From: Candidatus Colenecus caballi
Lineage (GTDB): Bacteria; Bacteroidota; Bacteroidia; Bacteroidales; Bacteroidaceae
Assembly (NCBI GenBank): GCA_018065615.1
Contig: JAGHSY010000068.1
Span: forward strand, 1 to 64,000
DNA: 64,000 nt
Direction: 5' to 3'
Part shown: piece by piece, positions 1 to 6,052 of the stretch
How positions within the stretch are numbered: the first letter of the stretch is position 1
How the letters are laid out: each line of letters opens with the position of its first letter
The notes under the pieces: generated by a model
Database searches by the model: none
The model's input: the letters and a program-made list of their open reading frames with translations, nothing else
Told to the model about the DNA's origin: nothing
Made by a program: the position numbers and the translations under genes

Positions 1-1
1 G

Positions 2-64
2 GCCGACAACCTGTTGCCTAACCCCTCCATTAAAAGACTCAATCTGCTCAAAAAAGTGAGCTAA
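2..64 (+). CDS. 3' end of an unidentified CDS (partial)
   Basis: An open frame enters from the left edge and runs 20 codons to a TAA at 62-64. Its last residues are basic and leucine-rich (ending LNLLKKVS). The frame ends 42 bp before the convergent stop of the acidic-protein gene, which suits a real gene end. So short a piece could also be chance, and no family can be assigned. Confidence 0.4.
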   Translation, partial: ADNLLPNPSIKRLNLLKKVS

Positions 65-106
65 AAAGAAAATGTTAACTTAACACCCTAGGACAGTCCC
101 CATTGA

Positions 107-550
107 TCAGTCAGCAAGCAGATCCTTGAGGAACTGGTCCAAATCCTCATCCAGTCCCTGCATCAGTCCCTGGCTGAGCAGGGTGTTGTCCTCATCGAAC
201 AGCATGAGTTCCGAAATGGTCTCCATGTCATCATCGACAAGCACGAAAGAGAACGGCTTCCAGATAGCCAGCTGCTCAAGCGGCTGGCTCTGGTCAATCT
301 GCTGAAGCAGACGGCGCAGTTCCTTTTCCATCACTTCATAAAAGTTCTCTTCAGGAATGTCCTGCAGATCGGACAAAGTGGCTGTGCCCAAGTCGCGGTC
401 ATCATCGGAAACGGTAACCTGACCAGTCTCACGGACCGGCTGGATATGGATGTCTGTTACGACAGACTGGTCATCGGACTTGCGGAAAGCCTTCAGGGCA
501 TTCTCAATGAGTTCCTTCAATTCCTGGAATGATGATTCGCTCAGTTTCAT
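107..550 (-). CDS. small acidic hypothetical protein downstream of secA
   Basis: This 147-residue protein is rich in Asp, Glu, Gln and Leu and has no signal peptide, membrane segment or cysteine, so it is probably cytoplasmic. I do not recognise the family. The N-terminal third is predicted helical; the C-terminal half carries runs of acidic residues and ends DLLAD. It lies on the same strand as secA and follows it after a 185-bp gap filled by a long palindrome, so it may be transcribed from the secA promoter through that structure. The ATG at 548-550 is the only good start. No function is proposed. Confidence 0.75.
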   Translation of the reverse strand: MKLSESSFQELKELIENALKAFRKSDDQSVVTDIHIQPVRETGQVTVSDDDRDLGTATLSDLQDIPEENFYEVMEKELRRLLQQIDQSQPLEQLAIWKPFSFVLVDDDMETISELMLFDEDNTLLSQGLMQGLDEDLDQFLKDLLAD

Positions 551-563
551 ATTGTCTTGTTTT

Positions 564-729
564 AGAATCTGTTTTGAAATGTTTGATTAAAAATTTTATG
601 AAAGATTTTCGAGATGAAAATCCGATTATTTGAAGGAGCAATGGAGGTCCATTGTGACTGAAAAGAAACGGATTTTTCAGCCGGAAAGATTTTATAAAAG
701 ATTAATTGGAACATTTCAAAACAAATTCT
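564..729. repeat. 166-bp imperfect palindrome between secA and the acidic-protein gene
   Basis: The outer arms 564-583 and 710-729 are reverse complements at 19 of 20 positions. The centre is a 7-bp perfect inverted repeat (CAATGGA 639-645, TCCATTG 648-654) around GG. Outer and inner arms share the same centre, 646.5. The intervening arms remain partly complementary, including a TTTTAT block and a TCCG block. On the minus strand this lies directly after the secA stop codon and would fold as one long hairpin in the mRNA. It could be a processing or attenuation hairpin or a MITE-like remnant. I see no transposase and no clear target-site duplication. Confidence 0.75.
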
Positions 730-735
730 GATGAC

Positions 736-3700
736 TTACATCATTTTGCCGTGGCAGTTCTTGAACTTCAGTCCGCTGCCGCACGGGCACGGGTCATTGC
801 GTCCCGGAGTCTTGTCCACCTTAATGGGTTCGCGCACCTGCTGGCGTGTGTCGCGGCCTGCGGCTGCACGCTGGTTCTGGTCATTCAGGTCAACCTTGGT
901 CTCATTGTACTGACGGCGCTGGGCACGGTTCTGTGCGGGGGCTTCACGTACGCGTTCAGGATCGGGTTCCGGAATCTGGCCGCGCATGAGTATGGTCACG
1001 GTCTGGTCATTCATCTTGTTGACCATGTTGTCGAACAGGGTCACTGACTCAAGCTTGAAGATGAGCAGCGGGTCTTTCTGTTCATAGCTTGCATTCTGGA
1101 CTGAATGCTTCAGTTCGTCAAGTTCACGCAGGTTCTCCTTCCAGCATTCGTCAATTGTATGCAGCAGTATTGCCTTCTGGAACGATGTGACAACGCTCCT
1201 GCTCTCCGATTCGTATGCCTCCTTCAGGTTGCACGGAATCTGATATACCCTGCGGCCGTCTGTGATTGGAATCAGAATGTTCTCGTAGTGGTCACCCTGC
1301 TCTTCGTACACTTTCCTTATAACCGGATTGACAATCTGGGCCATGCGTTCGCACTTGCGCTTGAAATTGTCCATGGCCGATGCAAAGATACGGTCTCCGA
1401 CCTCATCGGTCTTCATCTTTTCAAATTCGGACTCAGTGAACGGCAGTTCTATTGCAAGCACGCGGAACACCTCCATCTGAAGGCTCTCATAGTCCGCACA
1501 GTTTTCAGCAGCACCGGCGGAACGGTCATAGATCATGTTGGCAATATCCATGCCTATGCGCTCACCTATCAGGGCGTGACGGCGTTTCTCATAGACAACG
1601 GTACGCTGCTTGTTCATTACGTCATCGTACTCAAGCAGGCGCTTACGGGTGCCGAAGTGGTTCTCCTCAACCTTCTTCTGGGCCTGTTCAATACGTTTTG
1701 TAATGAAGCTGTTCTCAATCATCTCATCCTCCTGCAGTCCAAGCTTGTCCATAAGCGGTGCTATGCGCTCGGAACCGAACAGACGCATCAGATTGTCTTC
1801 AAGAGATATGAAGAAGACCGATGAACCCGGGTCACCCTGACGTCCGGAACGTCCGCGCAGCTGGCGGTCAACACGGCGGCTCTCATGACGTTCCGTGCCA
1901 ATGATGGCAAGACCGCCGGCAGCCTTGACTTCAGGTGAAAGCTTGATGTCCGTACCACGTCCTGCCATATTGGTGGCAATGGTCACAATGCTCTTCTGAC
2001 CGGCTTTGGCAACAATGTCGGCCTCCTTCTGGTGCAGTTTGGCATTCAGCACGTTATGCTCAATCTTGCGCATTGTAAGCATACGGCTCAGCTGTTCACT
2101 TATTTCGACCGATGTCGTACCGACAAGTACAGGACGTCCGGCCTTGACAAGGCTTTCTATCTCTTCGATTACAGCCTTGTACTTTTCACGCTTGGTCTTG
2201 TATATGCGGTCGTTCTGGTCAATGCGGGCAATTGGCCTGTTTGTGGGAATGACAACCACGTCAAGCTTGTAGATGTCCCAGAATTCTCCTGCTTCAGTTT
2301 CGGCCGTACCGGTCATGCCGGCCAGCTTGTGGTACATGCGGAAATAGTTCTGCAGCGTGATTGTTGCAAAAGTCTGGGTGGCAGCTTCAATGTTCACGCG
2401 CTCCTTGGCCTCGACAGCCTGATGCAGTCCGTCAGACCAGCGGCGGCCCTCCATGATACGGCCGGTCTGTTCATCGACAATCTTGACCTTGCCGTCTTCT
2501 GTCACAATGTAGTCAACGTCCTTCTCAAACATGCAGTATGCCTTGAGAAGCTGGTTGATTGTATGTATGCGGTCACTCTTTATGGCATAGTTGGTCATGA
2601 GTTCGTCCTTCTTTGCAAGACGGTCCTCATTTGACATGTCTGTCCTGGCCTCAAGTTCTGAAAGCTGTGATGCAATATCGGGCAGGACAAAGAATTCAGG
2701 ATCCTTATTGGTGCCGCTCAGCAGTTCCACGCCCCTGTCAGTCAGATCAACGCTGTTAAGTTTTTCATCAATTACGAAATACAGGGGTTCCACAGCTTCG
2801 GGCATACGCTTGTTCTGGGCCTCCATGTAAATCTCTTCGGTCTTCTGCATTCCCACCTTCATGCCCGGTTCACTCAGGAACTTGATTAAGGCCTTGTTCT
2901 TGGGCAGGGCCTTGAAGCTGCGGAACAGCGACAGGAATCCTTCTGCAACCTCATCCTGATTCTCGGAAACGACCTTCTTGCGGGCTTCGGCCAGGAACTG
3001 TGTAGCCAGACGCTTCTGGGCTTCATACAGTTGTTCGACCTGCGGACGCAGTTCTTCAAACATCTGGTCCTCACCCTTTGGAACAGGACCTGATATGATA
3101 AGAGGTGTACGGGCGTCATCTATCAGGACAGAGTCAACCTCATCCACAATTGCATAATTATGACCGCGCTGGACCAGTTCATTGGGGTGACCGGCCATAT
3201 TGTCACGCAGATAGTCAAAGCCGAATTCGTTGTTCGTACCGAAAGTGATGTCTGCACGGTATGCGTTGCGGCGCGCCTCTGAGTTTGGCTGGTGCTTGTC
3301 AATGCAGTCCACAGACAGGCCGTGGAACATATACAGCGGGCCCATCCATTCTGCATCACGCTTGGCCAGATAGTCGTTGACCGTAACTACGTGAACTCCG
3401 TTTCCGGTCAGTGCATTCAGGAACACAGGCAGGGTGGCCACCAGGGTCTTGCCTTCACCGGTTGCCATTTCGGCAATCTTGCCCTTGTGCAGAACGACAC
3501 CGCCGAACAGCTGCACATCATAATGGATCATGTTCCAGATTGTGTCATTGCCGCCGGCCACCCAGTGCTGCTGCCAAAGGGCCTTGTCGCCGTCAATGAT
3601 GACGAAATCATGCCTTGCAGCCAGATCACGGTCAAAGTCCGTGGCTGTCACTTCAACCTGGGCATTCTCCGTAAAACGGCGTGCGGTTTCCTTGATTATG

Positions 3701-4035
3701 GCGAACACATCAGGAAGGACCTCATCAAGAACCACCTCATAGCGGTCCAGGACCTCTTTTTCCAGTTTGTCTATCTGATTGAACAAAGGCTCGCGCTCTT
3801 CGACCTCGGTCTGTTCGACCTTTGCCTTGAGTTCATCAATCTTCTGTCTTTCAGGAATAGTGAAATCCTTTACCTTCTTTCTGATTGTCTGTGTAGCCTC
3901 ACGCAGTTCGTCATTTGAAAGTTTTTCGTACTTGGGGTAAACTGCCTTGATCTTCTCAACCCATGGCTGTATTTCCTTGATGTCACGGGTCTGTTTGTTG
4001 CCGAACAGCTTGCCTATAAATTCATTGAAACCCAT
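736..4035 (-). CDS. secA: SecA preprotein translocase ATPase
   Basis: ATP-driven motor of the Sec translocon, pushing unfolded preproteins through SecYEG. The protein has 1,099 residues, within the usual Bacteroidetes range, which exceeds E. coli SecA because of insertions. Visible motifs are the Walker A loop ATGEGKT at about residue 191, the DEVD Walker B box near 300, the [10 protein letters not shown] helicase motif, and a C-terminal zinc-binding SEC-C tail with CPCGSG followed by a Cys-His pair. The open frame extends 27 codons further upstream, but that part crosses the promoter. The ATG at 4033-4035, giving [10 protein letters not shown], matches family starts. It is divergent from ilvD. 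Confidence 0.97.
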
Positions 4036-4095
4036 TATGCGGAATTTGTTATATGTTACTACTTGCCTGGTACATGCAAAATCCGTACCAAAATG

Positions 4096-4103
4096 CAAAG
4101 ATA
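4096..4103 (-). promoter_or_regulatory. Bacteroidetes -7 box for secA
   Basis: The minus strand reads TATCTTTG, a match to TAnnTTTG, 60 bp upstream of the chosen secA start. No good TTTG -33 element is seen at the usual spacing. Its position inside the extended open frame is the reason for rejecting the longer SecA start. Confidence 0.6.
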
Positions 4104-4173
4104 CTCTTTTTTTCAATCTTTCATGTCATATTTGTCAGTCTTTGGTCCGATGTACATTTTGCATAATTTTTTG

Positions 4174-4204
4174 TTTGAAGAATGAATCAGTTCGTATATC
4201 TTTG
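4174..4204 (+). promoter_or_regulatory. promoter of the ilvDBNC operon
   Basis: A TTTG at 4174-4177 is followed after 19 bp by TATCTTTG at 4197-4204, a full Bacteroidetes-type promoter. Predicted transcription starts near 4210, leaving a leader of about 35-40 nt before ilvD. That is too short for a peptide-coding attenuator, and no leader hairpin or T-box is visible. Confidence 0.75.
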
Positions 4205-4249
4205 CACCTTGATTATAATAGTTCGTATATATATACAATATTCATGAAT

Positions 4250-6052
4250 ATGAAGATACCTTTGAGAAGTGACCAGTGTACTACAGGCCGTAGAATGGCT
4301 GCAGCACGAGCCCTTTGGGTAGCAAACGGAATGAAGAAGGAACAGTTCGGCAAGCCTATAATTGCCATTGCAAATTCCTTCACGCAGTTCGTACCTGGAC
4401 ACACGCACCTTCATGAAGCGGCACAGATTGTCAAGGCCGAAATAGAGCGTCTTGGCTGTTACGCCGCCGAATTCGACACCATAGCCATTGATGACGGCAT
4501 AGCAATGGGACATGACGGCATGCTTTACTCGCTGCCCTCACGCGACATCATTGCTGACAGCGTGGAATACATGGTCAATGCCCACAAGGCCGATGCCCTG
4601 GTATGCATAAGCAACTGTGACAAGATAACCCCCGGCATGCTCATGGCCACCATGCGCCTGAACATACCCACCGTATTCGTGAGCGGCGGTCCTATGGAGG
4701 CCGGAGAATGGAAAGGACAGCACGTTGACCTTATTGACGCAATGATCAAGGCCGCCGATGACAGTTACTCGGACAATGACATAAGGACTCTTGAAGACAG
4801 CGCATGTCCCGGCTGCGGATGCTGTTCGGGCATGTTCACGGCAAACTCCATGAACTGTCTGACAGAGGCTCTGGGATTCGCACTTCCCGGAAACGGCACC
4901 ATTCTGGCAACCCACGCAAACCGTGTGCAGCTCATGAAGGATGCTGCAAAGCTCATTGTCAGGAACGCATTGGCATACTATGAGGACGGAGACGACAGTC
5001 TGCTTCCGTTGAACATAGCAAAGAAACAGGCTTTTGAAAACGCCATGACGCTTGACATTGCCATGGGCGGTTCGACCAACACCGTACTGCACCTGCTGGC
5101 TGTTGCAACAGAAGCCGGCGTGGATTTCAGCATGGATGACATTGACCGTCTGTCACGCAAGGTCCCATGCCTTTGCAAGGTAGCCCCGAACACCCAGAAG
5201 TACCACGTTCAGGAAGTGGGACGTGCCGGCGGTGTGCTGGGCATCATGCAGCAGCTGAAAAAGGGCGGTCTGCTGAACGTTCAGGCCATGAACGTGACCG
5301 GCTCAAACTACGGACAGCTGACCGATGAATACGATCTTGAAAAGCCACAGCCGTCAGCTGAGGCAGAACGCATATACGCATCGGCTCCGGGTGGCAGGTT
5401 CTGCAACACGCTGGGCGCACAGAACTGCATGTATGACAGCTTTGACACGGACCGTACGGAAGGCTGCATACGCGACCTTCAGCACGCATACTCCAAAGAC
5501 GGCGGTCTGGCTATCCTGAAAGGCAACATTGCCGTTGACGGCTGCGTTGTCAAGACTGCCGGCGTTGATGAAAAGATCTGGAAGTTCTCCGGCCCGGCAA
5601 AGGTGTTCGACTCACAGGAAGACGCCGTTGACGGCATCCTTGGCGGAAAGGTCGTATCAGGAGACGTGGTCGTCATTACACATGAAGGTCCCAAGGGAGG
5701 TCCGGGCATGCAGGAAATGCTCTATCCCACATCATACATCAAGTCAAAGCACCTTGGCAAGGAATGCGCGCTGATTACCGACGGCCGTTTCAGCGGCGGA
5801 ACATCGGGCTTGAGCATAGGCCACATATCACCGGAAGCGGCAAGCGGCGGTGCTGTAGGCAAGATTGTTGACGGAGACATCATTGACATTGACATACCCG
5901 CACGCAGCATAAACGTACGTCTCAGCGACAGTGAACTGGCGTCAAGACCAATGCGTCCCATGACCCGCAAGCGTGCAGTCCCCAAGAGCCTCAAGGCCTA
6001 TGCCAACATGGTAAGTTCGGCCGACAAGGGTGGAACCAGAATTATAGAGTAA
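4250..6052 (+). CDS. ilvD: dihydroxy-acid dehydratase
   Basis: Third step of valine/isoleucine synthesis: dehydrates 2,3-dihydroxy acids to 2-oxo acids using an iron-sulfur cluster in the cytoplasm. About 600 residues, normal for the family. Cluster ligands are visible in CISNCDK and CPGCGCCSG. Also present are the family signatures [10 protein letters not shown] and GGRF-like [10 protein letters not shown]. The frame is open back to 3947 but this crosses the promoter; ATGs at 4244 and 4250 are both possible, and 4250 (MKIPLRSD) fits homologues best. It is the first gene of the ilv operon, with 4 bp to ilvB. Confidence 0.96.

Follow-up and report, generated by a model that had tools for sequence, protein, structure and literature searches.

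A non-autonomous MITE behind secA in Candidatus Colenecus caballi, and the strand-specific hairpin module common to it and to differing MITEs of Bacteroidales

Bacterial MITEs are usually viewed as deletion debris held by their ends, and the hairpins of NEMIS-like MITEs are known to be transcribed and cleaved by RNase III within mRNA. In eukaryotes, SINEs combine a conserved structured core with enzymes borrowed from other elements via their ends. As far as the accessible parts of the sources describe them, several repeats of Bacteroidota are close enough to the locus analysed here to be compared with it. IS5-ended MITEs are already a known kind of element in Bacteroidales, since BrickBuilt, MITEPgRS and MITE239/293/700 of Porphyromonas gingivalis are IS5-related (PMC4596501). 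Those elements resemble the present one in belonging to the same order, in their predicted stem loops and probably in having ends common to IS5 elements of the same genome, but their ends are different (GAGACC.. and ACGTCA..), BrickBuilt consists of 23-nt tandem repeats with inconsistent duplications, and the accessible part of that account describes no covarying module (PMC4596501). REP sequences and their TnpA_REP/RAYT genes of subclass 2.6 offer another likeness, being dispersed hairpins of Bacteroidetes of which some form inverted pairs (PMC6006769). PINSR, a 188-bp intergenic, dispersed and non-coding repeat of Prevotella intermedia and Prevotella nigrescens, is of similar size and comes from a related genus but, compared by description only, lacks terminal inverted repeats according to its authors (PMC4755523). 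MITECca01 of Cardinium is likewise a MITE of Bacteroidota, with a parental IS that has been named, but it is IS982-derived, 240 bp long and lineage-specific, with no conserved fold reported in the accessible text (PMC9769881). GUCCY-hairpin and Bacteroides-2, again compared by description only, are candidate hairpins or RNAs of uncertain status from Bacteroidetes and Bacteroides, respectively, without an Rfam number (PMC2864571). No earlier description of an order-wide, strand-specific, covarying module in MITEs of different transposition systems was recognised in the freely accessible literature, in which PINSR, GUCCY-hairpin and Bacteroides-2 were known by description and not by sequence. 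The MITE reported here is ordinary; the module common to differing MITEs is not.

The window, by which the whole analysed stretch of 64,000 nt is meant, contains between secA and a small acidic gene a large palindrome that an earlier note had described as a possible MITE-like element. The features of the locus are listed below.

107-550, minus strand: acidic 147-aa gene downstream of secA, an ORF found in 34/37 genus genomes
562-564, no strand: left flank TTA, presumed target duplication (family flanks of TNA type)
565-728, plus strand: MITE, whole element, 164 bp, GAA...TTC, delimited by 58 distinct full copies aligned and by the empty site in relatives
565-583, plus strand: left terminal inverted repeat GAATCTGTTTTGAAATGTT, 0 mismatches at C45:565-583
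596-700, plus strand, antisense to secA: hairpin module of ~104 nt, common to MITEs with other ends (match of the module model)
632-661, plus strand: tip with two tandem G.A/A.G internal loops 2 bp apart, from the sequence
639-654, plus strand: terminal stem-loop CAATGG-AGGT-CCATTG, from the sequence and RNA fold, the outer pairs covarying in relatives
710-728, minus strand: right terminal inverted repeat, minus-strand reading GAATTTGTTTTGAAATGTT, one mismatch
729-731, no strand: right flank TGA, presumed target duplication with one base changed (family flanks of TNA type)
736-4116, minus strand: secA, with its 3' end at 736 and the true start codon probably inside the ORF

The description as MITE-like was borne out. 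The element is short and non-coding (no ORF of >=60 aa was found inside 565-728), has terminal inverted repeats of IS5 type (GAANCTGTTTTGAAATGTT), occurs as dispersed copies with target duplications in the family, shows insertion polymorphism with an empty site in relatives, and has IS5 transposases with same-style ends in its genus. When its own and related genomes were searched, as the earlier note had proposed, multiple dispersed copies were obtained that were not confined to the position behind secA: the genome itself holds 3 full and two split copies along with several fragments, and 14 of 101 genomes (its own included) gave an element match at E<=1e-5. A plasmid search with the window element returned no match. 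The 58 distinct full copies that were aligned have common ends and a length of 156-166 bp; they were selected for having at most 2 mismatches at both ends and at most 3 substitutions from the pattern at the centre, degraded copies being left out. Identical 3-bp flanks, mostly TNA, were seen in 32 of 57 copies, against a mean of 14.2 and a maximum of 25 after shuffling, while the flanks of the window copy are not identical (TTA vs TGA). The 4th base of the ends was complementary between both ends in 56 of the 58 copies (shuffled mean 21.4).

The genus contains IS5-family transposases (NF033580, PF13340+PF01609) whose ends are similar in style. The transposase L107 of genome G031, which matches NF033580 with an E-value of 5.5e-65, lies intact between GAAGCTGTTTAAATTT and GAAACTGTTTAAATTT ends and has TAA on both sides. 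Except for the variable 4th base, the first 16 nt of the left end of the MITE are as in the IS5-type elements of G014 and G017, and in each of these two genomes the IS5-type ends equal those of the same-genome MITEs over 16 nt with the 4th base included (G in G014, C in G017); the IS5-type copies of both are themselves broken. The exact autonomous partner was not found in the genome of the window, where only IS5 remnants with ends GAAGCTGTTTAAATTT or GAAGCTGTTTGAATTT were seen, namely part of an IS5 at the end of a contig and an internally deleted IS5 of ~215 bp, with ends related to those of the MITE but not identical. Mobilisation in trans by IS5-type transposases is strongly suggested by these sequence matches, and 565-728 is almost certainly a non-autonomous MITE, the transposase presumably recognising its ends and duplicating a TNA target. 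The ~215-bp IS5 (L229, G000:C107) retains the first ~50 codons and has the appearance of a MITE in the making.

With an inverted-repeat search, arms of 82 nt each were delimited at 564-645 and 648-729, 72% complementary and separated by a 2-nt spacer; under one set of search settings the 64-kb window yielded six inverted repeats, of which this was the largest, the rest measuring 22-32 nt. The geometry given in the earlier note, with outer 20-nt arms matching at 19/20 (564-583/710-729) and perfect central arms (639-645/648-654, CAATGGA/TCCATTG) about the centre 646.5, was found to be accurate. Its statement that the palindrome fills the whole intergenic space was too broad, as the element proper (565-728) occupies only most of the 185-nt gap at 551-735. 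Folding of 550-740, also proposed there, gave -65.1 kcal/mol for the plus strand, far beyond shuffled sequences (-33.0, sd 3.9; z -8.3), none of which folded as well (0/200). The secA mRNA, in which a very long hairpin had been envisaged, carries the minus strand, which does fold (-46.9 kcal/mol, z -7.9), but more weakly than the plus strand. At the tip, the outer loop is formed by GA 632-633 with GA 660-661 and the inner loop by GA 636-637 with GA 656-657. No intrinsic terminator (a GC-rich stem followed by a T run) was found in 400-900, and the single sigma-70-like promoter of the region, against 0.8 in shuffles, was nothing of note.

The earlier note had named independent divergence of the two arms, with no paired changes, as the outcome that would speak against a meaningful palindrome; the opposite was observed. 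In alignment A1, made of the 58 full copies, pairing runs from one end to the other, with two-sided compensatory change in 34 of 59 pairs; 96.8% of cells are paired vs at most 56.2% after sliding of the partner, and 0/500 shuffles reached the observed values, the structures counted being derived from the alignments themselves. The mismatches were strongly polar, as G-T outnumbered A-C by 333 to 53 in a register that gave no credit for G-T, the excess being present in 58/58 copies, and the plus strand was the more stable one in 58/58. Copies within one genome are not independent, and a parsimony count gave a smaller excess (55 changes from Watson-Crick to G-T vs 19 to A-C). In the three subfamilies, 6, 8 and 9 of the 59 pairs were G-T by majority, and 0, 0 and 2 were A-C. 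As a cruciform folds both strands, so that G-T on one is A-C on the other, this polarity favours a process involving one strand, and taken alone it fits RNA and single-stranded DNA alike.

Two models were then used across wider sets of genomes, R1 for the whole element and R2 for the module. Within the family, R1 matched at least 81 of 399 genomes (E<=1e-6), and R2, run on 393 genomes sampled from the whole order, matched at least 18 (E<=1e-4), in at least 10 families with its own included; these genome counts are lower bounds with rough E-values, the best 7 (R1) or 10 (R2) candidates per genome being scored. In the window itself, R2 gave the single match at 596-700 (95.9 bits, E 6.7e-23). At the 20 R1 places examined, the hairpin was found inside elements with quite different ends and, in a few cases, without recognisable ends. 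Another module lacking recognisable ends, L341 (G608), may be a chance match. Alignment A2, in which 38 diverse modules of 47 non-redundant ones were retained, showed two-sided change in 20 of 25 pairs and 95.1% of cells paired vs at most 56.3% when slid. Left out were six near relatives and L029, L040 and L041, in which unrelated sequence stands in place of the 3' arm and pairs poorly, which counts against universal pairing. A set of 87 modules, obtained from 91 rows by removing three self matches on the opposite strand and one weak second match, again showed more G-T than A-C (215 vs 32). In this set the tip carries the two tandem G.A loops 2 bp apart, of which the outer one is nearly invariant (G 78/85, A 83/85, G 84/85, A 85/85) and the inner one less strict. 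An Rfam search of window positions 1-6000 and 9 further loci gave nothing at gathering score.

The carriers of type 2, with ends CCCAAATCGGTCATTAG, had exact 5-bp duplications in 16 of 22 cases, and duplications of 3, 4 and 6 bp in 0, 1 and 0 of the 22, respectively; the 5-bp duplications indicate that these MITEs probably do not share the transposition system of the TNA type. A search of 10 genomes for an autonomous type-2 partner with end AAATCGGTCATTAGCG gave many matches; among the matches listed, none formed a facing pair at IS distance. No match came from a phage search with the type-2 element. By pattern, 78 of the 87 modules fell into four end types, 9 being without a type, and at least 9 changes of type were counted on a rough module tree. 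The module is thus common to elements that would be moved by different transposases. A diverged module in the genome of the window (L360, G000:C10:41554-41656) has different ends, resembling TTAGTAA..AAAAAAATAAGTT.

Given its location, the palindrome could be read as a regulatory or RNase III hairpin belonging to the secA operon, and the earlier note had offered, among other ideas, a device separating secA from its downstream gene. The hairpin does lie in the gap between secA and the acidic gene, and it is stable on the mRNA strand. However, when the loci of the genus were compared (the neighbour gene being found in 34/37 genomes, and 30 loci compared with that of the window included), the gap measured 188 nt in the window vs 20-37 nt in 29/29 other loci. 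The site is empty in all of these, so the insertion is private to the genome of the window within this sample, and by this sequence comparison the element is shown to have inserted behind secA after the split from the sampled relatives. A conserved secA hairpin was rejected on the grounds of the empty sites, further copies stand beside many different genes, and the more stable strand is the one antisense to secA. The separating device did not survive this comparison, a conserved device of the operon is already refuted, and a regulatory or RNase III hairpin belonging to the operon is highly improbable. The insertion at secA looks incidental, lengthening the operon gap and placing the weaker hairpin in the secA mRNA, though in this strain it may affect secA or the acidic gene locally. 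The acidic gene, for which a Pfam search of 107-550 gave no match, follows secA directly in 30/30 genus loci as a conserved neighbour. A different reading would make the element an ordinary palindromic MITE, with arms kept alike by conversion or slippage and a shared centre reflecting common descent rather than function. MITEs of this long-armed kind are common, each arm can serve to correct the other, slippage in the palindrome shows in its deletion derivatives, and the 4th-base pairing of the ends could itself stem from arm correction. Correction would, however, be expected to give perfect complements blind to the strand, whereas mismatches persist with G-T on one strand, and the tandem G.A loops, which correction would erase, are among the most conserved positions. 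The module is moreover present between unrelated ends. This reading is already weakened and was considered unlikely.

It was also possible that the module acts as single-stranded DNA, folding at the replication fork for an enzyme of single strands in the manner of REP hairpins, IS200/IS605 ends or attC. Strand polarity suits single-stranded DNA equally well, inverted pairs of modules as in REP pairs occur in G635 and G775, insertions hit the hairpin tip, and TnpA_REP genes of subclass 2.6 in Bacteroidetes are described, in the accessible part of the source, as flanked by 'atypical' structures copied elsewhere (PMC6006769). For a time a REP/RAYT system was the leading idea, but it was left unsupported by a Y1_Tnp search and an R2 scan of 28 loci. 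R2 found the module at 1 of the 28 Y1_Tnp loci, where it belongs to a MITE with its own ends, and a second match (E 1) was at chance level. Moreover, 12 of 23 module-bearing genomes had no Y1_Tnp match, while 4 of 6 module-less genomes had one. A weak match in the own genome beside a Y1 gene (C75:13471-13496, E 0.68) was also discarded, R2 being blank there (L312). Unlike REP sequences, the module thus has no Y1 neighbours but for one MITE, no GT[AG]G foot was present at the stem (the tip stem being preceded mostly by GGAG, GGAA or GGCG), and its ends and flanking duplications are of DDE type. Action as single-stranded DNA was therefore regarded as doubtful. Judging by pairing and strand asymmetry, it is quite likely that the ~104-nt module is retained throughout Bacteroidales in the form of one folded strand whose polarity is fixed. 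On that reading, the acting form would somewhat more probably be RNA than single-stranded DNA, the chief reason being that each of the three subfamilies has many fixed G-U pairs. The fuller explanation, a non-autonomous transposon whose module is under selection for its single-stranded fold, as RNA and not as single-stranded DNA, and has travelled with more than one transposase system, was the best one available and was given about an even chance of being correct as a whole.

In that explanation, an IS5-family transposase would recognise the MITE ends, move the element in trans and duplicate TNA. Read-through transcripts of the plus strand would fold into a long hairpin with the conserved tandem G.A tip, and the folded RNA would probably be bound or processed by a putative host factor to the benefit of the element. 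Only 10 of 58 copies carry the Bacteroides-type promoter consensus TAnnTTTG on their plus strand. Between codirectional genes (n=29), 18 copies were antisense and 11 sense, which by crude ORF calls is no clear bias, a further 15 lay between divergent and 8 between convergent genes, and 6 of the 58 were unclassed. With no clear orientation bias, transcription of the plus strand may never occur in many of the copies. A short ORF (GGAG..ATG..TGA) is seen at the tip; Bacteroidota make little use of GGAG-type ribosome sites.

More tentatively, the module may represent a family of mobile structured RNAs in Bacteroidales, which would survive by passing from one transposase partner to another, with a strand-specific tandem-G.A hairpin between varied terminal repeats (3-bp and 5-bp duplications). 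Such a family would be a counterpart of the SINEs, analogous in its borrowing but, unlike them, with DNA transposase ends and no reverse transcription. The middle of this MITE family, spread through an order of gut bacteria, is better explained by selection on a folded strand than as debris. If the fold matters, one can test whether a bacterial transposon may owe its success to a non-coding passenger, and what host factor reads it. The covariance model now allows annotation of these repeats, which Rfam did not match here.

Decay of the element proceeds by deletions inside the palindrome, leaving end-to-end stubs of 45-98 bp, and inserts were found at the hairpin tip, the one in C124 being a 66-bp hairpin and the one in C93 measuring 2.5 kb. 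The latter (L009, G000:C93:24000-32000, at 2528-5054) holds a BspA-type leucine-rich-repeat gene (PF13306) and two short ORFs, which gave no Pfam match and which we take to resemble remnants of an IS3 transposase. At ~1640-1837 of L013 (G000:C109:8500-10769), a left half-element with a 66-bp insert stands between two pieces of apparently one broken gene, presumably a HicB-type antitoxin from the look of its sequence. In G042 (L103, L101 and L102), modules, some of them in tandem, are nested within other hairpins at the tip and in the arms, which suggests that the palindromes grow by layers. Elements of ~380 bp with two inverted modules between IS5-like ends, similar to a REP pair, were seen in G635 and G775 (L363-L367, L378 and L379). 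End-less modules at the same place in G006 and G026 (L268 and L269), adjoining the 3' end of what we presume to be a triosephosphate isomerase gene, are possibly old copies kept in place.
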